Source: Cristatella mucedo (Eukaryota; Bryozoa; Phylactolaemata; Cristatellidae). Taken from it: DNA of 64,000 nucleotides. Positions 2,695 through 64,000 of the stretch are shown here, piece by piece. Made by a program: the position numbers and the translations under genes. The stretch is from contig WPIO01000087.1 in the NCBI GenBank assembly GCA_009760855.2, positions 1,396,001-1,460,000 of the forward strand. The letters are read 5' to 3'. Under the pieces are notes generated by a model. It saw only the letters and a list, made by a program, of their open reading frames with translations. It was not told the DNA's origin and did no database searches. The first letter of the stretch is position 1; every line of letters begins with the position of its first letter.

Positions 2695-3065
2695 AAGGTC
2701 TGTGCGTTCATGTATTTACAGTTGGTGTAAAACCCTGCGGCCAGGTTTGTCTTTCGTCACCGTTGCAGTTGCCGCATCATACTACTTAAAGCCGACCTGC
2801 ACTGGCTCCCAGTCAAGCAGCGCATTGACTTCGATGTTCTGTCAGTCACTTTTAGGTCCATTCATTCCTTTTGCTTCAGCCTACCAATCAGAACTAATTC
2901 CTAATTGGGTTAGGTATCTGAGCAACTGCTCTTTCGATTCAAGTTGGTTAGCAATGCCCCGAACTAACCTAAAATGTACAGGAGATCTTCAGTTTATACT
3001 CTTGCAAAGCCCGGAACTCAATACGGACTGACGTCATTTACATTCCCTGACTTGATGGCATTTGA
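2695..3065 (+). mobile_element. Old L2-A LINE fragment (RT C-terminal part)
   Basis: This is a decayed copy of the L2-A region after the RT core. In mixed frames it shows ADLHWLPVKQRIDFDVLSVTF, recognisable from the intact-looking copies at 5380-5450 and on the minus strand at 47250. Many frameshifts are present. It ends where the next copy begins. Confidence 0.75.
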
Positions 3066-4272
3066 CAAAGATCATCTGAGGTACCTCTGAAATATGGGGT
3101 ACCTCAGGGATCCGTGCTAGGTCCGGCTCTTTTCACGGTTTATACTCTCCCTCTTGCTGATGTGATTGCCAAGCAGAATCTAGGCTTTCACTTCTATGTG
3201 GTTGACACTCAGTTGTACCTTTGCTTTGATCCCTCCCAGCTTTCGAGCACCTCAAATTCTTTCAACTCGCTGCATGTGTTGATGACATCCGCACATGGAT
3301 GACAGCAAATCTTCTAAAATAAACCATGATAAAACTAACTTACTAGTTATGGGCAAACCCAGTGTGATTCAGAGATTGGAAAGGCTGACTTTCAAAATTG
3401 GCTCTGCCAGCATATCTCCAGTTGAATCAGCTCGAAATCTAGGTGTCATATTCCAAAGCGAGTTAGACGACCATATCAGCTCCACAGTCAAATCTGCCTA
3501 TTTCCAACTTCATAACGTTACTAAAATTCGGGCTTGTATAGATAAGGACACCACGTCCAAGTTAGCCCATGCATTCGTGACATCCTGTCTCGACTTCTGC
3601 AACTCACTGCTTACTGGCCTACCAGCATGTGCGATCAGGCGATTGCAGCTGGTGCAAAACTCTGCAGCTAGGCTTGTCAGTCGTGAGCGCCGCAGTTGCC
3701 ACATTACTCCACTTCTCGCCGACCTGCACTGGCTACAAGTGAGGGAACGGATTGACTTCAAGGTTTTGTCGCTCACTTTTAGGTCACTTCATTCTTTGGC
3801 TCCAGCCTATCCCTCAGATCTACTCCCCCACCAGGCCAAGCATTGTACCACCAGCTTTTCGGAATCCAACAGCCTACAAATACCTCGTACAAATCTCAAA
3901 TCCTTTGGAGAACGTGCATTTAGTCCGTATGCTCCGACAGCCTGGAACTCCCTCCCGACCTGCGTCAGAACATCCCCTGACCTGACCGCATTTAAAAAGA
4001 ACTTAAAAACACAACTATTTAGGCCAGCATTTAGTGGGTCCCTGTGATTCGTCCTTGATGTGCGTATGCGTGATGACACTTTGCATGCTGCCACTAACCA
4101 CATTTGCATGCTGACCCTGTGCATGTCAGCCCTAACCATGTTATTCATTTTGTTTGTTTATCAAGCATGATTTTACTCACCATTCAATTGCGTTTCCCTT
4201 TGCAGCAAATGTAAAGCGCCTTGAGAGAAATTAAGTTCTCTGAGGGCGCTTTATCAAGTGCATTATTAACAT
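3066..4272 (+). mobile_element. L2-A LINE, 5'-truncated, RT pseudogene
   Basis: This L2-clade non-LTR retrotransposon starts inside the RT domain just before the [10 protein letters not shown]-type motif. It runs through the RT C-terminal region (3295-4047 open, ending ...LFRPAFSGSL) to a 3' UTR with the family hairpin (AAAGCGCC...GGGCGCTTT, about 4213-4252) and an ATTATTAAC-type tail. The polymerase motif YADD reads YVVD (3195-3206), so this copy is catalytically dead. A frameshift separates the two open parts near 3295. Its 5' break is almost the same as that of the copy at 4721. Confidence 0.92.
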
Positions 4273-4500
4273 TATTGTTATCTAAAACGAAGCTAAAAAA
4301 TGAACTTTTCCTGACAGCATCCGCTGGGTCCTGCGAATTGTCCATGGCGAACCTATGCATGATGATACTGTCTATTTTTCACTAATCCTGTTAAAATGTT
4401 TCCTTTCGGCGGTTTAGCGAGCCTAGAAATAGCAACATTCTCAGGTGGGTGCTATATGATATGTCATTCTTACTATTATGATTATTATTTTTGCTTGAGG
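4273..4500 (+). mobile_element. Old L2-A 3' fragment
   Basis: This is a degenerate copy of the last coding residues and 3' UTR. Its AGCATCCGCTGGGTCCTGCG parallels AGCATTTAGTGGGTCCCTGTG in the neighbouring copies. It ends in a TATTATGATTATTATT tail. Confidence 0.65.
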
Positions 4501-4720
4501 TCTCACAATGAAGGATGGTAATTTCGTCAGGGCTGGATCCACGTCTAAATTATGCAAGCGCAGTTATTTGCATCTTGCATCCTCCACATGCTACGAGGAG
4601 GAGGATGGAGTGCTGAAGATGCGACCACATATGTTACTTTAGAAACTCAGTGCTCTAAGCTAAGAGTTGAGTAGTTAAGTATATTTAAAAGATGTTACTG
4701 CCACAAGGCTAATTATTGTA
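4501..4720. other. Unassigned spacer between L2-A copies
   Basis: No motif recognised. Confidence 0.5.
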
Positions 4721-5952
4721 ATAAAGATCATCTGAAGTACCTCTAAAATATGGAGTACCTCAGGGCTCTGTGCTAGGTCCGGTCCTTTTCACCGTTTATA
4801 CTCTCCCTCTTGCTGATGTGATTGCCAAGCACAATCTAGGCTTTCACTTCTATGCGGATGACACTCAGTTGTACCTTTGCTTTGATCCCTCCCAGCCTTC
4901 GAGCACCTCAAATTCTCTCAACTCACTTGCTGCATGCATTGATGACACCCGATGGCAGCAAATTTTCTAAAACTAAACGATGATAAAACTAACTTACTAG
5001 TTATGGGCAAACGTAGTGTTATTCAGAAATTGGAAAGGCTGACTTTCAAAATTGGCTCTGCCAGCATATCTCCAGTTGCATCAGCTCGAAATCTAGGTGT
5101 CATATTCAAAAGCGACCTCTCGTTAGACGACCACATCAGCTCCACAGTCAAATCAGCCTATTTTCAGCTTCATAACATTGCTAAAATTAGGGCTTGTTTA
5201 GATAAGGATACCACGTCCAAGTTGGTCCATGCATTCGTGACATCCCGTCTCGACTTCTGCAACTCACTGCTTACTGGCCTACCAGCATGTGCGATCAGGC
5301 GATTGCAGCTGGTGCAAAACTCTGCAGCTAGGCTTGTCTGTCGTGAGCGTCGCAGTTGCCACATTACTCCACTTCTCGCCGACCTGCACTGGTTACCAGT
5401 CAAGCAACGGATTGACTTCAAGGTTTTGTCGCTCACTTTTAGGTCTCTTCATTCTATGGCTCCAGCCTATCTTTCAGAGATACTACCCCATCAGGCAAAG
5501 CATCGTACCACTCGCTTTTCGGAATCCAACAGTCTAGAAATACCTCGTACAAACCTTAAATCCTTTGGAGACCGTGCATTTAGCTCGTATGCTCCCACAG
5601 CCTGGAACTCCCTCCCGACCTGCATCAGAACATCCCCTGACCTGACCACATTTAAAAGAAACTTAAAAACATACCTATTTAGGACAGCATTTAGTGGGTC
5701 CTTGTGATTCGTCCTCGATGTGCTTATGCGTGCTGACACTGTTCATGCTGCCACTAACCACATTTGCATGCTGACCCAGTGCGTGTAACCCCTAACCATG
5801 TTATTCATTTTGTTTGTTTTTCAAGCATGATTTTACTTACTATTCTATTGCGTATCACTTTGCAGCAAATGTAAAGCGCCCAGAAAGAGATTAAGTTCTC
5901 TGAGGGCGCTTTATCAAGTGCAATATTATTATTATTATTATTATTATTGTGT
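4721..5952 (+). mobile_element. L2-A LINE, 5'-truncated, relatively young
   Basis: This is one of the best preserved L2-A copies. RT motif B ([11 protein letters not shown]) is at about 4757-4790, the catalytic YADD is intact at 4851-4862, and a 251-codon open frame (4952-5707) covers the RT thumb and C-terminal region, ending SGSL. A small deletion near 4950 shifts the frame between the YADD part (4770-4970) and the rest. The 3' UTR carries the AAAGCGCC/GGGCGCTTT hairpin (about 5873-5912) and an (ATT)n tail to 5948. Without an endonuclease and upstream RT it cannot move by itself. Confidence 0.93.
4770..5707 (+). pseudogene. L2-A reverse transcriptase, frameshifted C-terminal part
   Basis: This is the coding remnant of the copy above. 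The first part has the palm motifs [16 protein letters not shown] and YADDTQLYL. The second part has [15 protein letters not shown], the typical L2/CR1-group stretch after the palm, then KSAYFQLHNIAKIRACL and DFCNSLLTGLP. The protein would copy LINE RNA by target-primed reverse transcription in the nucleus. A frameshift near 4955 breaks it, and there is no native start because the element is 5'-truncated. Confidence 0.88.
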
Positions 5953-5994
5953 ATTGGCACCGGATTAATTATTGCGGTCCTATTTCACTGTCTC

Positions 5995-6826
5995 TCCGTT
6001 ATAATAATGATAATACATTTGAAATAGAGCCCTCGGAGAACTGAATCTCTTCCTAGGCACTTTACATTTTCTGCAACGGAAGCACTATTACAATAGTTAG
6101 TGGTAGCTTGCTTAATGATAAGAGCCAAAACATAAGGCTTTTGGTGATATGCACAGTGTCAGTATACATAAGCACACACAGAACAGACGAATGTCACGGA
6201 TCCGCTAAATGCTGTGATACACGTATGCGTTCTTAGTTTTTTGTTAATGCGGTCAACTCAGGGGATGTCAGGACACCGGTTAGAAATGAATTCCAGGCTT
6301 TGGGAGGACACGAACTAAACGCACGGTCTCCACAGGATTTAAGGTTCGTATGAGGTATAGGCAAACAAGTGTATTCTGGCAGGCAGGTAGCCTGATGGGG
6401 CAGTAGATCTGATTGGTAGGCTGGAGCTAAAGAATGAAGGGACCTAAAACTGAGTGACAAGACCTTGAAGTCGATGCGTTGCTTGACCTGGGGCCAGTGC
6501 AAGTCGGCGAGAAGTGGTGTGATGTGGAAACTGTGAGCTCACGAAAGACAAGCCTAGCTGCAGAGCTTTGCACCAGTTGTAAACGCTTGATTGCACAGGC
6601 CGGTCGATAAGCAAGCAGTGAGTTAGTAAAGTTGAGAAGGGATGTCACAAATGCACTGCCAAGTTAGCCGTAGTATCCCTGTCTAAGCATACCCGAATGT
6701 TAGCATTGTTATATAGCTGAAAGTAGGCAGACTTGGCTGTGGAGCTGACTCGGTTGTCAATTGAAAGGTCACTTTGAAACAGTTTAACTAGATTTCGTCC
6801 AGATTCAGCAGGAGACATTACGTCTG
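5995..6826 (-). mobile_element. L2-A LINE fragment, old
   Basis: The minus-strand 3' tail (TAATAATGATAATA then the hairpin remnant, about 6002-6080) leads into RT C-terminal sequence with HWPQVKQRIDFKVLSLSFRS (6440-6500) and NSLLAYRPACAIKRLQLVQ (6560-6640). It has several frameshifts. It ends near 6820, where a second tail begins. Confidence 0.85.
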
Positions 6827-7085
6827 TATATCACCCTCAGAGAACGTATTCTCTTTCTAGGCACTTTACATTTGCTGCACAGAAAGTGCGATCGAATTCT
6901 CAATAGTAGCATGCTCAATGACGGCATATATATCATGGTCAGAGGGGAAATGCATAGGTTCAGAATGCAAATATGTTTAGTGGTAGCATGCACAGTGTCA
7001 GCATGCATAGGCGCAAAAAGGAAGAATCACTTGGACCAACTAAATGCTGCGATAGTTATGTGCGTTTTTAGTTTCAGCAGCCAAG
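6827..7085 (-). mobile_element. L2-A 3' fragment
   Basis: A second minus-strand 3' end with the AGAGAACG...CTTTCTAGGCACTTTACATTTGCTGC signature, 3' UTR and the last codons. It abuts the L2-B copy that starts near 7086. Confidence 0.8.
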
Positions 7086-7477
7086 CCGTGGCTAGCCTTG
7101 TCTATCGGCACAACAACTTACTGCTTTTTATCCGTTGATAAACCGGCAGCCATCCGAGCTCTTTTATCAAACCGTGCATATAGTCATAGACATCTGGGAT
7201 TTGTAAACTAGTCTGGTGGTGGTCTCGTCCATCATAATCAGGTTGAAAGTGACTTTTGGTTGCTTTTTGGCTGAAGCTCATCAAAAATCTCAGTGCAATA
7301 ATCCAAGCCAAGACAGAACGAAAGAAATGGCTAAATCATTTGCATGCCACAGCGGTAAGAAGTCTCTAATCTTAGATTGGGATCAGATATGATGGCTAGC
7401 AGTGGAGGCAGTCTTATTAATGGAACTTTCATAATTTTGGCAGCTATCAAAGACGACATTCTAACAGTAAAAATAAC

Positions 7478-7970
7478 ACACTTGATGAAGCTCCCTCGGG
7501 GAACTCAATCTCTTTCCAGGTGCTTTACGTTTGATGCAAAGAAAGAATTATCGAATGGTTAGAAGTAGCGTCCTCAATAAACAGAAAACAACAGAGTGGT
7601 GACATGCACTGGGTCAGCATGCAAGTGTGGTTAGTGGCAGCATGCGCACTGTCAGCACGCAAAAGCACATGAAGGACGAATCACAGGGACCTACTAAATC
7701 CTGTCCTAAATAGGTGCGCTTTTAATTTCTTTTAGAATTTGATCAAGTCAGGGGATGTCGTGACAGAAGTCGGAGTGAGTTTTCAAGCGTTGGTATCATA
7801 CGAACTAAAGGCGTGGCCTCCAAAGGATTAGAGGTTTGTACGAGGTATAGGTGAACAGTTAGATTCCGAAAAGCGGATTGTGCGATGCTTAGCCTGGTGG
7901 GGCACTAGATCTGATAGGTATACTGGAGCCAAAGAATGAAGGATCTGAAAGTAAATGACAAAACCTCGAC
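7478..7970 (-). mobile_element. L2-A fragment inserted in L2-B
   Basis: It starts with the minus-strand 3' hairpin region (ACTTGATGAAGCTCCCTCGG...CCAGGTGCTTTACGTTTGATGC) and runs through 3' UTR into the last RT codons (GGACCTACTAAATCCTGTCC block), ending near 7970. L2-B sequence resumes on the other side. Confidence 0.8.
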
Positions 7971-8284
7971 GTCTAGATTAGGAGCACAAGTTGACAGTCG
8001 GAAAAAAGCATCCCATATTACAATGGCAAATTCTTCTCCAGTCATTTACTATGGGGTCTTATAAGTAGAAGTTACGTTTCATTGTCATTAAGTTTTAAGG
8101 ACATTTTCTTATATCCAGGACCAAGTGTCTGCAAGTAAAGCATTCAGTTTATCAGTCGATGCAGCAGATGGTTGAAACAACAAATACAGATAAGTACCAT
8201 TAGCATAAAAGTGATAGCCAATTACACTGGCGAAAATCGCTTTTCTTAGAGATTTGGTATAAATAAAGAACATCAAAATGTATA

Positions 8285-12727: not shown

Positions 12728-13338
12728 AATAATAATTATAATAATAATTCACTTGATAAAGCGCCCTGAGAGAACTTAATCTCTCTCTCTCTCTCTCTCT
12801 CTCTCTTGGCGCTTTACATTTGCTGCAAAGTGATACGCAATAGAATGGTAAGTAAAATCATGCTTGAAAAACAAACGAGATGAATAACATGGTTAGGGGT
12901 TACATGCACTGGGTCAGCATGCAAATGTGGTTAGTGGCAGCATGAACAGTGTCAGCACGCATAAGCACATCGAGGACGAATCACAAGGACCCACTAAATG
13001 CTGTCCTAAATAGGTATGTTTTTACGTTCCTTTTAAATGTGGTCAGGTCGGGGGATGTTCTGACGCAGGTCGGGAGGGAGTTCCAGGCTGTGGGAGCATA
13101 CGAGCTAAATGCACGGTCTCCAAAGGATTTAAGGTTTGTACGAGGTATTTCTAGACTGTTTGATTCCGAAAAGCGGGTGGTACGATGCTTGGCCTGATGG
13201 GGTAGTATATCTGACAGATAGGCTGGAGCCATAGAATGAAGGGACCTAAAAGTGAGGGACAAAACCTTGAACTCAATCCGTTGCTTGACTGGTAGCCAGT
13301 GCAGGTCGGCGAGAAGTGGAGTAATGTGGCAACTGCGA
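12728..13338 (-). mobile_element. L2-A LINE, 5'-truncated, hairpin loop expanded by (TC)n
   Basis: This is a young-looking minus-strand copy. The tail (AATAATAATTCACTTGATAAAGCGCC) and 3' hairpin are followed by 3' UTR and an uninterrupted RT C-terminal frame from about 13340 down to 12981 (RRSCHITPLLADLHWLPVKQ ... AFSGSL). The hairpin loop contains a (TC)n run of about 27 bases at 12781-12807 that other copies have only as TCTCTCT. The 5' end is truncated directly at an AT microsatellite (13340-13440). Confidence 0.92.
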
Positions 13339-13339
13339 C

Positions 13340-13440
13340 GCATATATGCATACCTATACATATATATATATATATATATATATGCATGTATATATATATA
13401 TATATGAATATTTATAAATTTCATTACATATATATATACA
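13340..13440. repeat. (TA)n microsatellite, interrupted
   Basis: TA runs with GCATG interruptions directly at the truncated 5' end of the L2-A copy. Confidence 0.9.
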
Positions 13441-17255: not shown

Positions 17256-17966
17256 TGCAATGTGATGTAATGTATTGTATCTCCGTCTGTAACTCCACAA
17301 AGTCATAAAGACCATGTGGGTGTTACGCAGGAGAGTTTTGTATAGCACACTCACAGCCTAAGCGGCTTTTGGTACGCATTCGGTAGCCAACACACTTCGT
17401 CTAACGCAACGAAGAGAAAGTGGGAAGCATAGCCAAGTCAGGAGAGCAGTTGAGGTAGTGAGTAGCATGGAAGTAGCAGCTCAGAACCGCTGAAAAGGAT
17501 GAGCCATAGTCGGCAGAAGGAGAGTAGTTGTCGTTGCGTAAGAATTTTGGAAGCGAGTTCCACAGTCAAGGACCTGCAGAGCTAAAGCTTCTGTCACCAA
17601 CGGTCTTTAAGCGGAGGAATGGGAAAGCTAATGTATTGTCCACACAGGACCTGAGGGTGCGAACAGACTGAAACTGACGCAGCAGTTCAGCTAGGTACGA
17701 AGGAGCCAAGCCGTGGTGGGCCTTGTGGGTCAGCGTAAGAACTTTGCTCTGCATCTGTTTCTCAACCGGTATCCATCCTAGCTAATGGCTCTTTCAGGAA
17801 AGGAGACACGTGCTCAAACCTCTGGGACTTGAAGACTAGCCTTGCAGCCATATTCATAGTCAGCTGCAGTGGCCTAGTTGCTTTTTTTGGTACCCCAGCC
17901 AAAAGGGAATTACAATAATCAAGCTGAGACAGAACTAAGGAGCTAGTTACATTTTTTTACCAACTG

Positions 17967-18716
17967 CTATGGGAGACAGCTCCTGATCTTGGATAGCGAT
18001 CGGACGCGATGACTAGCTGTGGAGGCAGTCTTCTGAATAAAGCTATTAAAATTGAGGCAGCTGTCGTAAACGAAACCTAAATTTTGAGCACGCGGTGATG
18101 GTCGCACAACAGCATCACCTATTAGAATAGCAAAGCCTTTTAATCCAGCCACACGCTTAGGGTGTCCTATGAGCAGCAGTTCGGTTTCATCGTCATTTAA
18201 TTTCAGCAAGTTTTCCGACGTCCAGGATCGAATGTCGGTAAGGCAAGCATTCAGCTTCTCAGTTGCTGCAGCAGATTCCGACGGTTTGAATGACAAATAC
18301 AACTGAGTATCGTCAGCACAAAAGGGATATCCTATTCTATGGGCCTTAAACACTTTTCTCAGAGGTAGTGTATAAATGTAAAACAGCAACGGACCGAGTA
18401 CGGACCCTTGAGGGACTTCACATGTGACCCTTCTCGTGTGTGAGACCTGACCCTCCCCACACGACACGCATTGAACGCGATCATACAAGTACGATTTAAA
18501 CCACGCCAGTGCTTCGTCTGCCAGACCGATCGTTGTTCTCAATCGCTCAATCAAAACATCGGGATCAATGATGTCGAAGGCAGCAGACAGATCTAGTAGA
18601 GCTAGGGCGGTAACATTCCCGTCGTCTTTGCCACGTAGAATGTAATTGTTTACATCGAGAAGAGCAGTTTTAGTGGAGTGCTGCCTCTTGAACCCTGATT
18701 GAAACGTTTCTGACAT
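17967..18716 (-). pseudogene. L2-B reverse transcriptase domain
   Basis: A 249-residue open stretch carries the RT motifs in order: FQSGFKRQHSTKTALL, ALLDLSAAFDIIDPDVL (catalytic Asp), [28 protein letters not shown] (YADD box with Tyr changed to Cys, Asp pair kept) and NLLKLNDDETELLLIG. The frame is lost at 17967, and the C-terminal part continues in another frame at 17566-17754 (HKAHHGLAPSYLAELL). Known L2 RTs make cDNA by target-primed reverse transcription; this copy is broken. Confidence 0.92.
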
Positions 18717-19329
18717 TTCATTATTTTAGCCACCACTTTTTCAAGAATCTTTGACAAGAAAGGAAGAAGGAAAACTGGAAAAGGGAAACTGGGCGATAGT
18801 TTACAAGGACCTCTGTATCTAATCCAGGCTTTTCAAGTATGGGTTGAACGATTGCCGATTTCGAGGACTTGGGGACGACCCCTTTTCCCAGAGAAGCATT
18901 AAAAATCTTGGTTATGGCAGTGCTAAGTTGGTCTGCTAGTAAATATTACAGAGATGAAAGTATAGGGTCTTCAGGAGACGAGGTCTTTTTGCTAGACCTT
19001 ATTAAGTAAGGTAGCCACGTTGCATGCAGAAACCACACAGAACCTTTTAAGGAAGGTAAAAAATTGTTGAACCTTGATTGCTTTAGTCGGAGGGGACTTA
19101 GTGGAGGCACGAATGTGCACAATGTTTTCAGTAAAGAAGGCTGAAAACATTTCGGCTGAGCCCTTAACATCTGGGGAGTCAGACCTCACAGCATTGGCCA
19201 GTAAATGGTTAACTGGCTTATATATCTGTTTAGTGTCCGACTGGCAGGAATTCAGCTTTCTAATGAAAAAAGAAGCCCTGGCTTTTTTAAGCTTTCGGGT
19301 GTAAGCTCAAAGGAAGTCTTTGAAATTGA

Positions 19330-20290
19330 CTAGATCTTCACCAGACCCGATTTCTTGAAACGGCGTTCAAGCCTGCGCTTAACCCGGCGCATCTTTAGGA
19401 GTTTTTTTGTAAATTGAAAGGAATCTCCACTACTTTGAACATGGCTAGAATGAACGGGAGCATGCTTGTCAAGAGCACTCCTGAGTGTCCTGTTCATGGC
19501 AGTATAGAGGCTCCCTGTCGAGTCTGAATGCAGATCAAGAAGACCTACGTCACAAACAGATTTCAAAAACTTGTCTATGTCAATGCTTCGTAAGTTACGT
19601 CGTTTGACAAGTTCGACATCACCCTGTACGTACAAGAGAGCATGAACAGTAAATGAGACCGGAGAATGATCTGAGAGGGTCAGTGGGCACATCACAAGGT
19701 CAGTGGGGAGGACATCCTTAGTAATCACGAGATCTAGAATGTGGCCACCGACGTGGTTGGTATGATTAACGTGTTGGACCAAACCAAAATTCTCCAGACA
19801 GGTAAGAAATGAGCGGACCTGGCTGTTGCTAGGGTTGCCAACGTGAATAGTGAAGTCTCCTACAATCAGTAACGGCCTGTTGCACACAAATATTTTAGCG
19901 AGGAACTCTGAAAACTCCTCTATAAACAAATTTAGACAGCCAGAAGGCGGCCGGTATATCACAACAGTGAGAGGCATTGTTTTTTATGAAGACCTGAGTG
20001 CAACCGATTCAAACGATGGCCCATGCGAAAAACTGCACATCTTATAGCCAAACGATTCACGAACAACAAATGCAACCTTGCCACCAACCTTGTCAGAACG
20101 CGTGGACTGATAGAATGAGAACCCGGGTGAAGTGGTCTCAGAAATACAGCTACTGGAACAAGGATTCATCCAAGTTTCGGTAAGCAGAAATGCATCTAGC
20201 TTCTCCTGGACCACCTGATCGAGGATAAGTAACCCCTTGGTTTTAGCGAGCGGACATTTAGTAGGCGGAATTTAAGAAGCTATCTAACAA
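19330..20290 (-). pseudogene. L2-B endonuclease domain
   Basis: This is an apurinic/apyrimidinic-like endonuclease that nicks the target DNA for LINE integration. The N-terminal part (about 20290-19984) has KLDAFLLTETWM, the family's catalytic-Glu segment. The second part (19977-19330) has VIYRPPSG, LLIVGDFTIHVGN, HILDLVITKD and LSDHSPVSFTV, the last containing the conserved SDH metal/phosphate site. A frame break near 19980 separates the two parts. After SDH the sequence runs into a basic linker (KKLLKMRRVKRRLERRFKK). Confidence 0.88.
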
Positions 20291-23191: not shown

Positions 23192-24372
23192 CAGCAATAT
23201 TAATAATAATAAGAATACCTTTGATAAAGCGCCCTCATAAAACTCAATCTATAGGTGCTTAAAAATTGTTGCAAAGGAAACTCGATCGAATGGCTAGTGG
23301 TAGCACAATCAATAAACAACAAGAATAGCAAGCTTAGGGGTGACGTTCACAGGGTCAGCATGCAAATATGGTTAGTGGCAGCATCCACAGCATCAGCACG
23401 CATAAGCACAGAAAGGACGAATCACAGGGACCCACCGAATGGTATCATAAATAGATGAGTTTTTAGTTTCTCTTTAAATGTGGTTCAGTCAGGAGATGTG
23501 ACGCAGTTTGAAAGTGAGTTTCAGGATTTGGGAGCATGCGTACTACCGGCACAGTCTTCAAAGAATTTTAGGCTTTTACGGAGTGTAGTTAAATAGTTAG
23601 ATTCCGAAAAGTGGTGGTACGATGCTTAGCCTGTTGGGAGAGTAGATCTGATAAGTAGGCTGGAGCCAAACAATGAAGGGACCTAAAAGTGAGTGACAAA
23701 ACCTTGAAGTCGATACGTTGCTTGACTGACAGGCAGTGCAGGTCGGCTGGTGTGATATGGCAATGGCGACGCTCATGACAGACATGCCTAGCTGTAGAGT
23801 TTTGCACCAGCTGCAAGCACCTGATTGCACAGGCCGGTAGGCCAGCAAGCAGTGAGTTACAGAAGTCAAGACGGGATATCACAATTGCACTGACCAATTT
23901 TGACGTGGTATCCCTGTCTAAACAGTATCGAATTTTAGAAATATCGTGATGCTGAAAGTAGGCAGACTTGACTGCGGAGCTGATGTCCGATGAAAAGTCG
24001 GAGCATGACACCTAGGTTTCGTGCAGATTCAACAGGACATATGCTGGCAGAGCCGATTTTGAGCGTTATCCAATTTATGATTCGCACTTGGTTAGCCCAT
24101 AACTAGTAAGTTGATTTTATCATCATTCAATTTAAGAAAGTTATCTGCCATCTATGTGTGGATGTCTTCAATACATGCAGCAAGGGAGTTGAGAGAATTT
24201 GACGAATTGGAGGGCTGGGTGGGATCAAAGTATTGGTTTAAGTGAGTGTCACACACATAGAAATGAAAGCCTAGACTGTGCTTGGCAATCACATCGGCGA
24301 GACGGAGAGTATAAACCGTTAAGAGAACAGGACCAAGCATGGAGCCCTGAGGTACCACATACTTCAGGGGTT
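23192..24372 (-). mobile_element. L2-A LINE, 5'-truncated, old
   Basis: The minus-strand (ATT)n tail and degenerate hairpin (23195-23270) lead through 3' UTR into RT C-terminal sequence (24011-23589, ISSAVKSAYFQHHDISKIR, DFCNSLLAGLPACAIR) and the palm region (24358-24152, VPQGSMLGPVLLTVYTLRL). YADD reads YVCD, so it is inactive. It meets an oppositely oriented older L2-A copy at about 24372-24430. Confidence 0.9.
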
Positions 24373-24429
24373 CCTCGAATAATTTAGGAAATAGCTCTGC
24401 TGAGTTAGCACTGCTGCAGGTTCATAATG

Positions 24430-25309: not shown

Positions 25310-25916
25310 GCCAATGCAGCTGGCTATAAATATGGCTGCAAGGTTTGTTTGCAAATCCCTTAAGTTTGACTTGAAGTGTCTTCTCTGTTAAAAGAGCTAG
25401 GATGGCTGCCGGTTGATCAACGGATACAGAGCAGAGTTCTTACGCTGACCCACAAGGCCCGCCACGGTTTGGCTCCTTCATACCTAGCTGAACTGCTGCA
25501 TCAGTTTCAGCCTGTTCGCTCCCTAAGGTCCTGTGTGGACAATAAATTAGCTGTCCCATTCCTCCGCTTAAAGACAGTTGGCGACAGAAGCTTTAGCTCT
25601 GCAGGTCCTTGACTGTGGAACTCGCTTCCACAACTCTTAAGAAACGACAACTACTCTCCAACTGCCGACTATGGCACATCTTTTTCAGCGGTCCTGAGCT
25701 GCTACTTCTATGCTACTCACTACCTCAACTGCTCTCCTGACTCTGCTATGCTTCCCACTTTCTCTTTGTTGCGTGAGACGAAATCTGTTGAGTACCGAAT
25801 GCGTACCGAAAGCTGCTTAGGCTGTGAGTGCGCTATACAAAACTCTGCTGCGTAACACCCACATGGTCTTTATGACTTTGTGGAGTTACTGACGGAGATA
25901 CATTACATTACATTAC
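25310..25916 (+). mobile_element. L2-B LINE 3' part
   Basis: RT C-terminal sequence: ELGWLPVDQRIQSRVLTLTH, then HGLAPSYLAELLHQF, then RLKTVGDRSFSSAGP (25376-25612 open). It continues through 3' UTR to GGAGATACATTACATTACATTAC at 25894-25916. The 5' side is decayed. Confidence 0.88.
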
Positions 25917-32316: not shown

Positions 32317-33622
32317 GGACCTGTCAGGGATATCACTGGCACTGCACTGAACGGTTCAGGTCCTATCTCAGTGGGGAACTCCAGAATACTGATGCCAAAG
32401 GACAAACATCATCCAAGAAACCTCTGAAATATAGGGTATCTCAGGGCTCCGTGCTTGGTCCTGTTCTTTTCACGGTTTATACTCTCCCTCTTGCCACTTT
32501 GATCGCCGGGCACAATCTAAGCTTTCACATCTATGCGGAGGATCACAACTCAGTTGTGCCTCTGCTTGGATCCCTCCAAGCCCTCCAGCAGGTTGAATTC
32601 TCTCAACTCCCTTGCAGCATATATTAATGACATTTGCACATGGCTGGCAGCTAGCTTTCTTAAATTGAGTAATAATAAAACCAACTTTCTAGCTACGGGC
32701 AAAGCAAGTGTGATTCAGAAATTAGAAAAGCTAACGCTCACAATTGGCTCTGCCAGCATATCTCCTGTTGAATCTGCTCGAAATCTAGGAGCCATGTTCC
32801 AAATAGGCCTTTCGGTGGACTACCACATCAGCTCCACAGTCGTCTGCCTACTTTCAGCTACATAACATTGCTAAAGTTCGGGCTGGTTTCGATAGGGGTA
32901 CGACATCTAAGTTGATCCATGCATTTATGACATCCCGTCTTGACTTCTGTAACTCACTGCTTACTGGTCTACCGGCCTGTGCAATCAGGCACATACAGCT
33001 AATGCGAAACTCCGAAGCTAGGCTTGTCTGTCGTGAACGTCACAGTTGCCACATCACACCACTTCTCGCCTACCCGCACTGGCTACCGGTCAAGCAACGG
33101 ATCGATTTCAAGGTTGCGTCGCTCACTTGTAGGTTCCTTTGCTCTTTGGCTCCACGCTACCTATTTGATCTACTGCCCCACAAGGCCATTCTTCGTACCA
33201 CCAGCTTTTCGGAAACCAACTGTTAACCTATACCTCGGACAAATCTCAAATCCTTAGAGACCGTGTATTTAGTTCGTATGCTCCCAAAGCTTGGAACTCA
33301 CTCCCGACTTGCGTCACGACATCTCCTGACTTGATCACAATAAAAAAGAAACTAAAACGCATCTATTTATCACAGAATCTAGTGGGTCCCTGTAATTCGT
33401 CCTTTATGTGCTTATCTTATGTGTGCGGACTCTGAGCATGCTGCCACTAACCACACTTACATACTGACCCTGTACATTTTGCCCCTAACCATGCTATTCT
33501 TTTTGTTTATTGAGGATGATACCACTGACCATTCGATCGTGTTTACTTTGCAATAAAAGTAGAGTGCCTAGAAAGTGATCGAGTTCTCTGAGGGCGCTAT
33601 ATCAAATGGATTATTATTATAT
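32315..33622 (+). mobile_element. L2-A LINE, 5'-truncated, RT pseudogene
   Basis: It starts just upstream of RT motif B (GTALNGSGPISVGN-like, then [18 protein letters not shown]) and continues through the palm. YADD reads YAED (about 32532-32543). Then come LKLSNNKTNFLATGK and the C-terminal region (32912-33226, LDFCNSLLTGLPACAIR). It has frame breaks near 32625, 32860 and 33226. The 3' UTR ends in GAGGGCGCTATATCAAATGGATTATTATTAT. Confidence 0.9.
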
Positions 33623-35224: not shown

Positions 35225-36192
35225 AGCTGGCTGAGGATTGGGATGGTTTAATACCTCATTTCTTGAAACTAAACGACGATCAAATTTAACTGCTGCCCAC
35301 AGGATACCCGAGGCGTGTGGCTGGACTAGAAGGCTTTGCTCTTCTAATGAGGGAGCTGTTGTGCGACCATCATCGTGTGCTCAGAATTTAGGTGTCGTCT
35401 TTGACAACTGCCTAAATTTTGAAAGCTTCGTTTAAAAGACTGCTTCCACAGCTAGTCGTCACGTCCTATCCCTATCTAATATTAGGAACTATCTTCCACG
35501 CTAGTTTGTAGCAAATTTAACTTGCTCATTAGTTCTTTCTTGGCTAGATTATTATAATTTGTTTTGGCTGGACTACTGAAAAAAGTCACTGCAGGTGACT
35601 GCAGCTGGGGATGAATATGGCTGCAAGACAAGTTGACAAATCCCAGAGATTCGACCATGTGTCTCCTTTGCTGGAAGAACTTGGATGACTGTGAGTTGAT
35701 CAACGGATCCTGAGTAAAGTTCTTATCCTGACCCACAAGGCCCGCCACGGCTTGGCCCCTCATTATCTAGCTGAACTGCACCACCAGTTTCAGCCTCCTC
35801 ATGCCCTCAGGTCCTGTATCGTTAATAGATTAGCTGTTCATTCCTCCGCTTAAAGACCGTCGGCGACAGAAGCATTTGCTCCACGGGGCCTAGGCTGTGG
35901 AACTCACTTCCACGATTCTTGCTCAACGACCACTACTCTCCTGCTGCTGACTATGGCACATCCTTTCCAACCGTCCTGAGCTGCTACATCCGCGTTACTC
36001 ACTACCTCGATTGCTATCCTGACTCTGCTACGCTTCCCACTTTCTTTTTCTTGTGTGAGATGAAGTCTGTTGGCTACCGAATGCGTACCGAAAGCCACTT
36101 AGTTCGCGCTTAGAGTGCTCTATACAACACTTTCCTGTGGGAAGCCCACATAGTCTTCGTGGCTTTGTGGAGTTAAAGACGAAGATGCATAT
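35225..36192 (+). mobile_element. L2-B LINE inserted near the Gypsy 3' end
   Basis: A 5'-truncated L2-B with FLKLNDDQ-like start (35258-35280), RRVAGLEGFAL, QNLGVVFDNCLNFESF (35385-35433) and the C-terminal HKARHGLAPHYLAELHHQF region. It ends in the 3' UTR at GGAGTTAAAGACGAAGATGCAT (about 36169-36192). It has many frameshifts. Gypsy sequence lies on both sides. Confidence 0.8.
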
Positions 36193-36439
36193 CAATCATA
36201 ATGCTCCGTTAGTCCAGATCCATGGTAGCAGATCGTGATAGGCTGCCATTCGCAGTCGAGTCAACAGCTGGAGGAACCGATATGGTTAGCGCGTAGACCC
36301 TGCTAGACAAAGCACCTGTCGCCACTGAGCGATCCTCTGTCGACGCTGCTTGCTGGGCGTCCTCACTGCAATTCTGATTATCCTGAAGTCTGCATTCTTC
36401 ATCAGCCAGCTGTTTTCTGTTCCTTAAAGCAAAACAGAT

Positions 36440-37759: not shown

Positions 37760-37761
<2 letters not shown>

Positions 37762-37799
37762 AAATGTCACCGGCTGGCGCTCCGCGAGCGAGCGAGTGC

Positions 37800-38122
37800 T
37801 TATTGAGATGCTCTACGACAAAGCCACGACTACCATCCACTGAGTAAGTATCGCAAGCTACGACGAACGGAAGACCTTTACTTGGGCGGACTTCCAGCCC
37901 CCCCCCACATCGTCGGTGAGCGGCTCTCGAGTTTGCTGCGGGCCGATGTACATTTTCCCAAACACTGGGACTGCTTCGGCTGGTCATAGGGGACAGCAGA
38001 AATCTGGGCACAAAGTCCAGCTTGAGCTCAAAATAAAACCCTGCGAGCCCCGGGATGCCAGACAGTTCGTCAGCGTCACTTGGTATACGCCGGTCATGGA
38101 TGACTGCCACTGTTTGTGTCAT
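37800..38122 (-). pseudogene. Gypsy RT-RNase H connection and RNase H start
   Basis: A 120-residue open stretch shows GLAGFYFELKLDFVPRFLL (about 38010-38065), like the usual LAGYYRRFI connection motif. KGLPFVVACDTYSVDGSRGFV (about 37820-37885) follows, resembling the first RNase H motif (PF.L..DAS..G.GAVL) with the Asp kept and Ala-Ser changed. The hAT insertion separates it from the RT core. Confidence 0.65.
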
Positions 38123-38124
38123 TC

Positions 38125-38328
38125 GTCAAGTGCAGCGGTTCTCAACCTTCCCAAATGCCGCGACCCTTTTAATACAGTTTCTCATGTTGTGGTGACCCCC
38201 AACCGTACAATTATTGTGTGTAAAATATGCATTGCGTGTTTTCCGATGATCTTAGGCGACCTCTGTTAAAGAGTCATTCGACCTCCAAAGGATTTGCGGC
38301 CCACAGGTTGAGAACCGCTGGTCTAGTA
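38125..38328. mobile_element. Non-autonomous hAT element resembling SPIN, with TIRs and imperfect TSD
   Basis: A 188-bp element (38133-38320) has perfect 16-bp terminal inverted repeats, CAGCGGTTCTCAACCT at the left and its reverse complement at the right. It is flanked by 8-bp repeats GTCAAGTG and GTCTAGTA (6 of 8 identical), the length expected for hAT transposition. The interior (CCGCGACCCTTTTAATACAG, TCATGTTGTGGTGACCCCCA, TCTTAGGCGACCTCTG) matches, from memory, the short SPIN-type hAT family found across distant animals. It has no transposase and would need one supplied in trans. It sits in the Gypsy pol remnant, so it is the younger of the two. Confidence 0.85.
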
Positions 38329-38429
38329 CTTCCTGCTGATGCGACGAGTCCCGAGAAAGCGACTCCCTGTTGGGAAAAGCAGCATTTTGCAGAGGTTTGA
38401 ACGTCGATTACCTTAAGAGACTTTTAAAT

Positions 38430-38965
38430 GCATTGAGGCCAGCAAGATGGTCATTCTAAGTCTCGTGGAAGTGAACGAAGTCGTCGAGGTGTGCCAGGAC
38501 ATCTTCTGTGTCAAGCACATGAATGAGGTTATTGAAGACACGTTGAAATGTACGCGGGGCGTTGTTGAGTCAGAATCTCAAACGACAGTACATGGAGAGG
38601 CCATAGTGTGATGCAAAAGCATTTTTGGGTCTATCTTCTTCAGTAAGCTCAATTTGATGTTAGCCAGATGTCAAGTCGAGGCTGCTACAGAACTTATCTT
38701 TGTGAAGAGGATCCCGAGTCTCGGTAACAGCCGATAGTTGTCCCTAATGGTGACCTAATTGAGATGCGATAATTGATGAAAATTCTACGGTCACCCGGAG
38801 GCTTTCTTACGATCGCTAAGGGTTACGCCCACTGACCGTTTAGTCGTTCGATGATGCCATAGTCCAGCATCTCGTTCTCTTCTCTTCGTGACAGGCGCTT
38901 TACTGTAGCGCAAGTGGAATGACCTTTAGGGCACAGTCGAACGAGCACTTCTTGCGGCTGCAGCT
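38430..38965 (-). pseudogene. Gypsy reverse transcriptase remnant
   Basis: On the minus strand in mixed frames: EMLDYGIIERLNGQWA (38830-38880), AIVRKPPGDRRIFINYR, then DLTSGY.QIELTEEDRPK (38635-38680, with the catalytic Asp), FASHYGLSMYCRLRF, LNNAPRTFQRVFNNLI and LAHLDDF (38477-38497, the YLDD box with Tyr changed to His). At least one stop and several frameshifts are present. Confidence 0.88.
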
Positions 38966-39199
38966 GAAGCGGCCACGCTGTATTTTACTATATATTATAT
39001 TGTATTTTACTACACTTTCGCGAATCCCTCAAGCTTTAGGAGAATACTTGGCAATTATGTTTGATCAGAGCTTGTTCCCTTCCGCCTCTGTGACCATTCG
39101 TTGGCATCATGAAAGCCTCCCTGACCTAGCTCAGCAGCTTCTTCCGCCGCTAGAGCCGCTAGAGTGAACGGCTTCGGCGGAGCTGGAAAGGATTGGTCG

Positions 39200-46020: not shown

Positions 46021-46742
46021 CGTGAACGTCTAAGCTAGTCCATGCATTTGTGACATCCCGTCTTGACTTATGTAAGTCACTGCTTCCTGGCATACCGGCA
46101 CGTGCCATCAGGCGCTTACAGCTGGTGCAAAACTCTGCAGTTAGGCTCGTCTGTCGTGAGCATCGCAGTTGCCACATCATACCACTTCTCACCGACCTGT
46201 GAGCTGGTTACCAGTCAAGCAACGGATCGACTTCAATGTTTTGTCGCTCACTTTTAGGTCACTTCATCCTTGGCCCCAGGCTATCTCTCGGATCTACTCC
46301 CCCCACCAGGCCAAGCATCGTACCCCTCCCCCGCTTTTCAGGATTCAATAGTTTACCATTACCTCGTACAAACCTCAAATCCTTTAGAGACCGTGCATTT
46401 AGTTCGCATGCTCCAAAAGCCTGGAACTCACTCCCGACTTGCGTAAGAACATCCCTTGACTTGACCACATTTAAAAAGAAATTAAAAAGATACCTATTTA
46501 GGACAGAATTTAGTGGCTCCCTGTGATTCGTCCTTCATGTGTTTATCCGTGCTGACACTGTGCATGCTACCACTAACCACAGTTACAAGCTGACCCTGTG
46601 CATGTCATTCCTAACCATGTTGTTCATGTTGTTAATCAAGCATAATATTACTCACCATTCAATCGCATTTCCCTTTGCAGGAAATGTATAGCGCCTAGAA
46701 AGAGATTGAGTTGTTTGAGGGCGTTTTATCAAGTGCATTATA
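46021..46742 (+). mobile_element. L2-A LINE, 5'-truncated
   Basis: It begins at the K(L)[10 protein letters not shown] region (46024) and shows the RT C-terminal part. 46236-46526 is open to ...TEFSGSL after a frame change near 46200. The 3' UTR and a partial hairpin (GAGGGCGTTTTATCAAGTGC) follow. Its tail touches the tail of the next element. Confidence 0.9.
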
Positions 46743-48165
46743 ATAATTCACTTGATAAAGCGCCCTCAGGGAACTTAATCTCTCTCTAGGCGCTTTACAT
46801 TTGCTGTAAAGTGAAATGCCATTGAATAGTAAGTAAAATCATGCTTGAAAAAAACAAACGAAATGAATAATATGGTTAGGGGTGACATGCACAGGGTCAG
46901 CATACAAATGTGGTTAGTGGCAGCATGCACAGTGTCAGCACGCATAAGCACATCACAGACGAATCACAGGGACCCACTAAATGCTGTCCTAAATAGGTGT
47001 GTTTTTAGGTTCCTTTTAAATGTGGTCAGGTCAGGGGATGTTCTGACGCAGGTCGGGAGGGAGTTCCAGGCTTTGGGAGCATATGAACTAAATGCACGGT
47101 CTCCAAAGGATTTAAGGTTTGTATGAGGTATTTCTAGACTGTTGGATTCCGAAAAGCGGGTGGTACGATGCTTGGCCTGATGGGGTAGTATATCTGACAG
47201 ATAGGCTGGAGCCATTGAATGAAGGGACCTAAAAGTGAGGGACAAAACCTTGAAGTCAATCCGTTACTTGACTGGTAGCCAGTGCAGGTCGGCGAGAAGT
47301 GGAGTAATGTGGCAACTGCGACGCTCACGACTGACAAGCCTAGCTGCGGAGTTTTGCACCAGCTGCAATCGCCTGATCGCACATGCTGGTAGGCCAGTAA
47401 GCAGTGAGTTGCAGAAGTTGAGACGGGATGTCACGAATGCATGGACCAACTTGGACGTGGTATCTTTATCTAAACAAGCCCTAATTTTAGCAATGTTATG
47501 AAGCTGAAAATAGGCGGATTTGACTGTGGAGCTGATATGGTCGTCTAACGAGAGGTCGCTTTGGAATATGACACCTAGATTTCGAGCTGATTCAACTGGA
47601 GATATGCTGGCAGAGCCAATTTTGAGAGTCAGCCTTTCCAATCTCTGGATCACACTGGTTTTGCCAAAACTAGTAAGTTAGTTTTATCATCGTTAAGTTT
47701 TAGAAAATTTGCTGCCATCCATGTGCGGATGTCATCAATGCATGCAGCTAGTGAGTTTAGAGAATTTGAGGTGCTCGAAGGCTGGGAGGGATCAAAGCAA
47801 AGGTACAACTGAGTGTCATCTGCATAGAAGTGAAAGCCTAGATTGTGCTTGGCAATCACATCAGCAAGAGGCAGAGTATAAACCGTGAAAAGAACCGGAC
47901 CTAGCACTGAGCCCTGAGGTACTCCATATTTCAGAGGTACTTCACGTGATCTTTGTCCATTCACGTCAATACTCTGGAGTCTCCCACTGAGATAGAACCT
48001 GAACCACTGCAGAGCAGTGCCAGTGATGCCCAGGCGAGGTGAGAGGCGCTCTAGAAGAACTTTGTGATCGATGGTATCAAAAGCTGCCGAAAGATCAAGC
48101 AAAACAAGCAGAGACACTCTACCCATGTCTGCATTCCTAAGTAGGCCGTTGTATACCCGAAGCTT
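46743..48165 (-). mobile_element. L2-A LINE, young, opposite orientation, tail-to-tail
   Basis: This is the longest well-preserved L2-A. The tail and intact hairpin (46747-46800) are followed, going upward, by the RT C-terminal frame (46964-47245), the middle (47264-47653) and the palm (47650-48126). The palm has [29 protein letters not shown] and an intact YADD (47812-47831 region). Only two or three frame breaks separate these. Upstream it ends near 48165 at a second copy of an RVYN-encoding sequence, where older L2-A begins. Confidence 0.92.
46964..48126 (-). pseudogene. L2-A reverse transcriptase, three frame segments
   Basis: The palm segment has motif A (LSAAFDTIDHKVLLERL, catalytic Asp), motif B ([11 protein letters not shown]) and motif C (YADDTQLYL, both Asp kept), then [16 protein letters not shown]. 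The second segment has IGSASISPVESARNLGVIF and SSTVKSAYFQLHNIAKIR. The third ends ...FRTAFSGSL. Breaks at about 47650 and 47250 are single small indels or stops. No endonuclease remains in this copy. Confidence 0.9.
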
Positions 48166-48930
48166 AATAGTATTGTTCTTATAAAGTCGTTATACACCCT
48201 AACCGATGCTAACTGACTCTGTTGAGTTATTATCTCTAAAACCGGACTGAAACTTGAATGCTAGATTTGAAGTTTCATTGTAAGAGTTCGGATAATCTGC
48301 CGCAATTCAATCCAGTGTTTTTTATTGGAACGGTAGAATGGAGACTGAGCGGAAGTTGCTCAGGTTCTTTTGATCTTTTGTTGCTTTCGTTATCACTGGC
48401 TCAATAAAATAGCCCCTTTGAAAGTGGCAGTGACAAGACCCGAGGGAAAGGACATATTTTGCATATCATTTATGTAGGGCAGTAGCAGAGCTATGCACCG
48501 CAGAAATATGACAGCGAAAATATGGTCAAGAGGGCTAGCATTCTTCTTTGATTGTAGAGATAAGCTTTTAAGATAATGTCACTCGTTGCTTTTTTGAATG
48601 TGGACATTGAGGTGCTGCACAGAACTGACGTTGGATAGTCTTGTTGGGTCGTTGCTGGAGGACAGTAGTCCAGTTGGGTTTCTTCCACCCTACGGATGAA
48701 TCCTGTCTATCCTTTTGGCAAAGAAGATTCCATAACAATCAGCCAGATCGTCATAAAGATATAACGAACCAATTTGTGAGCGGTTAAAGAGATGATTGGT
48801 CTTAGACATCAGCCTCTTCGGATTGTGCACCTGTGATTCAACAAAATTTTTACTGCACCAAGAGTTAGCCTTAGCTAGGATATATTGGATATTCACATCA
48901 ACTAAGATGGAATTCCCTGGACTTATCGTT
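48166..48930 (-). mobile_element. Older L2-A, upstream RT and pre-RT region
   Basis: On the minus strand the pre-RT segment has SWCSKNFVESQVHNPKRLMS and LYDDLADCYGIFFAKRIDRI (48690-48870). STSMSTFKKATSDIILK (about 48590-48620) and a PYINDMQNMSFPSGLVTATF-like stretch (about 48425-48485) follow. The segment ends with FQSGFR...STESVS and RVYNDFIRT near 48166-48260. It is more decayed than the copy at 46743-48165, which lies within it. Confidence 0.8.
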
Positions 48931-59956: not shown

Positions 59957-59986
59957 ACCTGTGCTTCAAAGTGCAACAAGCATCGC

Positions 59987-60076
<90 letters not shown>

Positions 60077-60114
60077 ATATATATGCGATGCTTGTTACAC
60101 TTTGAAGCACAGGT
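59957..60114. repeat. Inverted repeat with 39-bp arms around an AT/GT microsatellite
   Basis: Left arm 59957-59995 begins ACCTGTGCTTCAAAGTG. Right arm 60076-60114 ends CACTTTGAAGCACAGGT. They match at 38 of 39 positions. Between them is an 80-base (TA)n block with GTGTGTG interruptions that is itself partly self-complementary. Confidence 0.92.
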
Positions 60115-60711: not shown

Positions 60712-61068
60712 ATGTTTAATGCAATGTATCTCCGTCTGTAACTCCACAAAATCATAAAGACTATGTGGGTGTTACGCAGGAGAGTTTTGTATAGCGCACT
60801 CACAGCCTAAGCGGCTTTCGGTACGCATTTGGTAGCCAACAGACTTCATCTCACGCAACCAAGAGAAAGTGGGAAGCATAGCAGAGTCAGGAAAGCAGTT
60901 GAGGTAGTGAGTAGCATGGAAGTAGCAGTTCATGACGACTGGAAAGGATGGGCCGTAGTCGGCAGCATGAGAGTGAGTCATTGCGTAAGGATCATGGATG
61001 CTAGTTCCGCAGCTTAGGACCTGCAGAGAAAAAAGCTTCTGTCGCCAACGGTCTTTGAGCGAATGACG
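60712..61068 (-). mobile_element. L2-B 3' fragment
   Basis: The 3' end AATGTATCTCCGTCTGTAAC (about 60720-60740), then 3' UTR and the last RT codons (ADYGPSFPVVMNCYFHATHY, KTVGDRSF) in broken frame. Confidence 0.88.
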
Positions 61069-63016: not shown

Positions 63017-64000
63017 TCCATTGTAATGTATCTCCGTCTGTAACTCCACAAAGTCATAAAGACCATGTGGGTGTTAGGCAGGAGAGTTTCGTATATCGCA
63101 CTCACAGCCTAAGCGGCTTTCGGTACGCATTCGGTACTCCACAGATTTCGTCTCACGCAACAAAGGGAAAGTGGCAAGCATAGCAGAGTTAGGAGAGCAG
63201 TTGAGGTAGTGAGTAGCATAGAAGTAGCAGCTCAGGACCGCTGAAAAGTTTGAGCCATAGTCGGCAGTAGGAGAGTAGTTGTGGTTGCGTAAGAATTGTG
63301 GAAGCGAGTTCCACAGTCTAGGACCTGCAGAGCTAAAGTTTCTGTCGCCAACTGTCTTCAAGCGGAAGAATTGAACAGCTAATTTATTGTCCACGCAGGA
63401 CCTGAGGGCGCGAACAGGCTGAAACTGATGCAGCAGTTCAGCTAGGTACGAAGGAGCCAAGCCGTGGCGGGCCTTATGGGTCAGCGTAAGAACTCTGCTC
63501 TGTATCCTTTGCTCAACCGGCAACCATCCTAGCTCTTCCAGCAAAGGTGACACGTGCTCAAACCACTGGGACTTGAAGACCAGCCTTGCAGCCATATTCA
63601 TAGTCAGCTGTAGTGGCCTAGTTGCCTTTTTTGGTACCCCAGCCAAAAGGGAATTACAATAATCAAGCCGAGACTGAACTAAAGAGCTAGCTAAATTTTT
63701 TACAAGCCACTGTGGGAGACAGCTTCTAATCTTGGATTGGGATCGGACGTGATGGCTAGCTGTAGAGGCAGTCTTCTGAATGAAGCTTTTGAAATTGAGG
63801 CAGCTGTCGAACACGACACCTAGATTACGAACACGTGGTGAAGGTCGCACAATAGCATCACCTATTAGAACAGCAAAGCCTTTTAATCCAGCCACACGCT
63901 TAGGGTGTCCGATGAGAAGCAGTTCGGTTTTATCATCATTAAATTTCAGGAAGTTTTCCGACATCCAGGATCGAATATCGGCAAGGCAAGCATTCAGTTT
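63017..64000 (-). mobile_element. L2-B LINE, young, runs off the right edge
   Basis: The 3' end (AATGTATCTCCGTCTGTAAC at 63025-63045), a short 3' UTR and an uninterrupted RT C-terminal frame reach the window edge. This is the only L2-B with a long unbroken frame, which suggests recent activity of the family. The catalytic core lies outside the window. Confidence 0.93.
63074..64000 (-). CDS. L2-B reverse transcriptase C-terminal half, partial
   Basis: The frame is open from the edge to the stop at 63074. It has ENFLKFNDDKTELLLIGH (the segment after the palm), NLGVVFDSCLNFKSFIQ, QSRLDYCNSLLAGVP, ELGWLPVEQRIQSRVLTLTH, HGLAPSYLAELLHQF and a C-terminal part with several Cys (FYATHYLNCSPNSA, LGCECDIRNSPA). 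The reported Met at 63964 is internal, not a start, because the frame continues upstream. The full protein would have endonuclease and palm domains before this. Confidence 0.88.
   Translation of the reverse strand, partial: KLNACLADIRSWMSENFLKFNDDKTELLLIGHPKRVAGLKGFAVLIGDAIVRPSPRVRNLGVVFDSCLNFKSFIQKTASTASHHVRSQSKIRSCLPQWLVKNLASSLVQSRLDYCNSLLAGVPKKATRPLQLTMNMAARLVFKSQWFEHVSPLLEELGWLPVEQRIQSRVLTLTHKARHGLAPSYLAELLHQFQPVRALRSCVDNKLAVQFFRLKTVGDRNFSSAGPRLWNSLPQFLRNHNYSPTADYGSNFSAVLSCYFYATHYLNCSPNSAMLATFPLLRETKSVEYRMRTESRLGCECDIRNSPA

Follow-up and report, generated by a model that had tools for sequence, protein, structure and literature searches.

A SPIN-like hAT MITE family in an invertebrate genome and its probable arrival by horizontal transfer

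The question raised by this locus is whether a short inverted-repeat unit belongs to the SPIN family of hAT transposons, and, if so, how it came into the genome of its host. The 188-bp unit occupies positions 38133-38320 of the window, by which we mean the whole 64-kb stretch of DNA that was analyzed, and is bounded by perfect 16-bp terminal inverted repeats (TIRs), CAGCGGTTCTCAACCT. The flanking 8-mers, GTCAAGTG at 38125-38132 and GTCTAGTA at 38321-38328, are identical at 6 of 8 positions. The preliminary description had claimed exactly this unit with these TIRs and flanks; its coordinates were exact, and the flank and TIR checks, together with the family of copies described below, confirmed it. 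The features are as follows.

38125-38132, unstranded: left target-site duplication (TSD), GTCAAGTG, from the flank comparison and the family-wide pattern
38133-38148, plus strand: left TIR, CAGCGGTTCTCAACCT, perfect over 16 bp
38133-38217, plus strand: left arm, common by alignment to the host family and a murine MITE (presumed sequence)
38218-38234, plus strand: short middle, by alignment unlike that of the presumed murine MITE, which is about 40 bp longer
38235-38320, plus strand: right arm, by alignment to the presumed murine arm
38305-38320, minus strand: right TIR, perfect over 16 bp
38321-38328, unstranded: right TSD, GTCTAGTA, with TA at positions 4-5, from the flank comparison and the nnnTAnnn pattern (PMC3499496, passages cited)
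37760-38990 (approximate), minus strand: probable decayed Ty3/Gypsy pol interrupted by the MITE, from motif-like stretches recognized by eye only

Perfect inverted 16-bp pairs spaced 60-600 bp apart were absent from 20 random windows (Markov-1 model). In the real window there were 388 such pairs, mostly of low complexity, and 21 after low-complexity filtering; the 20 listed of these 21 fell in three places, one of which was the SPIN-like unit. The background for a flank match of at least 6/8 at the same spacing was 351 of 63,796 window positions (0.55%). No second copy of the unit was found within the 64-kb window, and neither Rfam (at the gathering threshold) nor ARAGORN gave a match on it. 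The unit was classed as a MITE because 188 bp cannot encode a transposase; like other MITEs it is short, non-coding, bounded by TIRs and accompanied by many similar copies.

These copies were sought with the 188-bp query in the host assembly (572,011,866 bases in 688 contigs). Forty places, including the window copy, were scored as the best of 1876 first-look candidates. The 39 best-scored copies besides the window copy were 84-87% identical to it and nearly all full length, and the length across all 40 was 185-190 bp. A 187-bp host consensus was derived from the 39 copies with their flanks and the window copy. In 28 of the 40 copies the two flanks agreed at no fewer than 6 of the 8 positions (9 copies at 8 positions, 14 at 7 and 5 at 6), whereas with permuted right flanks (2000 permutations) only 3.4 of the 40 copies on average, and at most 10, reached that level. 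Among the 56 flanks of the 28 copies with a TSD, 51 had T at position 4 and 51 had A at position 5. Agreement was below 6/8 in the other 12 copies, some of which had decayed ends or an apparent register shift, as judged by eye. This family-wide TSD pattern is the strongest check on the element, and the unit is a member of a real repeat family in the host genome. The expectation that a true element of this kind would have many host copies with 8-bp TSDs was thereby borne out.

A 16-bp TIR of the CAGYGGTTCTCAACCT type is, we assume, a hallmark of SPIN, and a TIR of this type was found in the window copy and in the host family. A TA-centred 8-bp duplication, as expected of hAT/Buster elements, was present in 28/40 copies. 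With a 16-bp TIR of the Buster/SPIN kind, a TA-centred 8-bp TSD and many copies, the unit is a hAT element, as had been proposed. The host element resembles SPIN and its MITEs in the presumed type and length of the SPIN TIR, in the Buster-group TSD and in its high-copy short derivatives. It differs in that its host is an invertebrate, and its kinship with SPIN is read through the presumed sequence of a murine MITE. The passages cited from PMC3499496 give nnnTAnnn as the form of TcBuster duplications and place SPIN with TcBuster in the Buster family; the TA-centred 8-bp duplications of the host MITE are like those of TcBuster, a likeness by target sites alone. The 15-base TIR pattern also occurred in 58 stretches of viral contigs and at least 118 stretches of prokaryote contigs, with alignments of 31 bp or less that were ascribed to chance. 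Phage records gave no match to the element, and four short pieces in plasmid records were also taken as chance.

For comparison with mouse, a presumed sequence of a murine MITE was fixed before any host copy was known; we take it to be URR1, presumably a derivative of SPIN. The left arm of the window copy agreed with the presumed murine arm at 76 of 83 ungapped columns (91.6%), and the right arm at 75 of 86 (87.2%). The window core without its TIRs scored 114 against the presumed MITE, and the maximum of 500 shuffles was 25. When aligned with the presumed MITE, the host consensus matched it at 178 columns, with 8 mismatches and 40 gap columns. The middle of the presumed URR1, about 40 bp longer, differs from that of the host consensus, but outside the middle there were 2 mismatches only, with 164 of 166 bases alike: 79/81 bp in the left arm and 85/85 bp in the right arm, its first base left out. 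The convergence of a consensus of worn copies on the presumed murine sequence is a strong check, short of a database match. Of the earlier SPIN-family claim, the part that stood is a match to a murine MITE far beyond the TIRs; that MITE is presumably linked to SPIN.

The murine comparison is one with a presumed sequence, save for 39 bases known independently from print, namely two reverse primers (mouse Ate1 locus; PMC2767504, passage cited). These primers matched the host consensus at 18/19 bases (at its end) and 18/20 bases (from reverse-strand position 56), and none of 5000 shuffles matched them as well. On the window copy, the second primer matched at 16/20 bases, and the first, in its 20-base form, at 11/20; this primer starts one base outside the element, to which the scan was confined. 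In open-licence papers, words from the TIR were found only in two mouse papers, and one inner word was found in a crab paper.

An ordinary, vertically inherited hAT MITE that is specific to the host and belongs to the Charlie/Buster clade might carry a SPIN-like TIR only through family-wide conservation. Related hAT ends are indeed alike, the left end of a presumed MER5A sequence matching the window element at 15/17 bases, and further loci with a hAT dimerisation domain, most of them weaker, are numerous in the host genome. However, the presumed MER5A core was no better than shuffles against the window core (score 15, shuffle maximum 31), and the match of the host consensus to the presumed murine element covers both arms beyond the TIRs, so that vertical descent is unlikely. 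It is more improbable still that the element belongs not to SPIN but to another hAT family that moves horizontally (OC1, hAT1 or hAT-6). OC1 alone of these families was compared, and its presumed end aligned to the host element no better than chance (score 19, shuffle maximum 24). Several hAT families have moved among the same carriers (PMC11614815, PMC3621081 and PMC11008031, passages cited), and OC1 (OposCharlie1) shares with the host element its hAT nature, a similar spread and a short MITE, of 192 bp in the Tasmanian devil (PMC3621081, passage cited).

The family has decayed. Mean divergence from the consensus was 6.1% over the 39 copies, a value biased low because these copies are the best matches to the window copy. 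The window copy, at 11.3% from the consensus, was the most diverged of the 40, a rank likewise biased by that choice of copies. The mean pairwise distance was 1.85 times the distance to the consensus, which is near the star value of 2 and therefore fits one main burst. Transitions reached 8.4% at CpG and 4.4% at the remaining C/G positions (1.9-fold), an excess that is weak in comparison with mammals; the CpG observed/expected ratio of the window, 0.94, is also unlike that of mammals. These two values argue against contamination, for example by rodent DNA, of the copies or of the mitochondrial contig, which would make the transfer only apparent. In addition, the 40 copies are scattered over numerous contigs, mostly of megabase length, and have different flanks. 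Finally, a nuclear copy of mitochondrial DNA beyond 4.3 Mb of contig C166 (97.1% alike over 2268 aligned bases and 96.0% over 1505) ties the mitochondrial contig, C688, to the host. Contamination is thus scarcely credible.

Because its nuclear copy sits in C166, the mitochondrial DNA belongs to the host. COX1 on C688 can be read without interruption under code 5, the invertebrate mitochondrial code, in which TGA stands for Trp. Its AGA/AGG codons fall at serines that we take to be conserved, e.g. in NNMSFW; under the vertebrate mitochondrial code these codons would break COX1, and a lamprey, considered as host, was rejected for this need of code 5. The mitochondrial order, cox3-trnK-trnA-trnN-atp6-...-cox1-atp8-trnI-nad3 (protein genes, including atp8, placed by eye), resembles what is presumably the lophotrochozoan ground order (mollusc/brachiopod/phoronid). 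The host gave no match to the cuticle-protein domain Chitin_bind_4, a weak sign that it is unlikely to be an arthropod, as the control genomes gave none either. The molluscan haemocyanin beta-sandwich also had no match in the host or the controls, an equally weak sign against a haemocyanin-bearing mollusc. The long nuclear mitochondrial copy (L275 against L274, 96-97%) was also seen to be missing some 520 bp of COX1 that the mitochondrial DNA contains.

An autonomous partner was sought through the hAT dimerisation domain, for which 150 of 766 candidates were scored and 138 matches listed. SPIN-like arms were found at none of the 50 host loci examined out of at least 138 matches listed, and 30 of these 50 belong to one other young hAT family. 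In the same set, 63 of the 138 listed matches stand apart with E values of 1.1e-16 or better. This second family, at loci L224-L253 (e.g. L235 from base 1062), is very young and has no SPIN-like arms. When L235 was compared with the 29 other loci, 25 gave alignments of 2.1 kb or more, with 99.0-99.8% identity. Several open frames of 635-642 aa are present in this family, one end of which starts TAGGGCTGTACCGGAT, and it looks recently active.

The preliminary description had placed the insertion in a decayed Gypsy pol and drawn a relative date from it. Minus-strand stretches near the MITE resembling motifs (AFASHYGL, NNAPRTFQRVFNNL and HLDD) make this context plausible by eye, but 8 of 8 pieces near the MITE had no Pfam match, and hence no Gypsy match. 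The relative date is therefore weak. One nearby piece gave a single PDB match (E 0.69), which was taken as chance.

Other repeats were also observed in the window. Many copies of an L2-like non-LTR retrotransposon, recognized by eye, lie at 3053-7973, 12728-13341, 23196-24383, 32332-33620 and 46026-48027, up to 93.7% alike and with an RVT_1 match in 47650-48189; the stretches at 5066-6818 and at 46026-47458 each align to themselves in reverse complement. Among viral contigs, 22 pattern matches to the reverse transcriptase of this element were obtained and none was confirmed as a relative. A second repeat family (17262-18257, 25310-25916, 35260-36196, 60717-61061 and 63022-64000; most pairs 78-90% alike) overlaps another reverse transcriptase frame, with an RVT_1 match, at 17967-18725. 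An endonuclease-like frame is present at 19330-19983, and a long (TA)n/(TG)n array between inverted flanks at 59957-60114 may form a hairpin.

The best explanation, to which we assign a probability of roughly 0.83, is that a SPIN-like autonomous element was transferred horizontally and mobilised a hAT MITE of the Buster/SPIN group in trans, and that the family then decayed. A SPIN-like autonomous hAT would have entered the invertebrate lineage by horizontal transfer, and its transposase would have worked in trans through the TIRs and subterminal arms that the MITE shares with it. Internally deleted copies would have been inserted into TA-centred 8-bp targets, giving the 8-bp duplications. The family would have decayed in place, the window holding one worn copy. 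Mouse and a protostome-like invertebrate split more than 500 million years ago, and a horizontal route is likely because arms that are not translated cannot remain about 98-100% alike over such a span. The near-identical murine arms and the host's own code-5 mitochondrial DNA likewise make horizontal transfer likely. The supposition of the preliminary description that this would be a new transfer fared accordingly: a new transfer into the host lineage is likely by the arm match and the mitochondrial code, the murine sequence being partly presumed. The structure, the repeat family with its TSD pattern and decay, and the invertebrate mitochondrial code of the host are established; we infer the mobilisation in trans, the transfer and the placing of the family in SPIN proper.

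In the passages cited, the carriers of SPIN include murine rodents, galago, opossum, tenrec and vespertilionid bats, with transfers to mammals, murine rodents among them, at 15-46 My ago (PMC5857283), as well as Rhodnius (PMC11614815) and the painted turtle, with 385 copies (PMC4054807); a SPIN-like hAT is present in about 1000 copies in the snail Biomphalaria (PMC5440852). As SPIN-like elements in other invertebrates are already in print, the host family would be a new member and not a new kind, and the host is probably a new SPIN-type carrier. The fuller proposition stands at about even odds: that a SPIN-type MITE, possibly in more than 1000 copies, is present in a lophotrochozoan-like carrier outside the known ones, the result of a new deep transfer between phyla. 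In the same proposition that carrier is no vertebrate and not evidently an arthropod, annelid or haemocyanin-bearing mollusc, and the arms of its MITE are virtually identical to those of the mouse element.

Among transposons that have crossed between remotely related animals, SPIN is the textbook example. Another invertebrate carrier, with a large MITE family that can be dated, would widen the range of SPIN, and such a family would provide a point from which to ask which animals or parasites moved SPIN between phyla.
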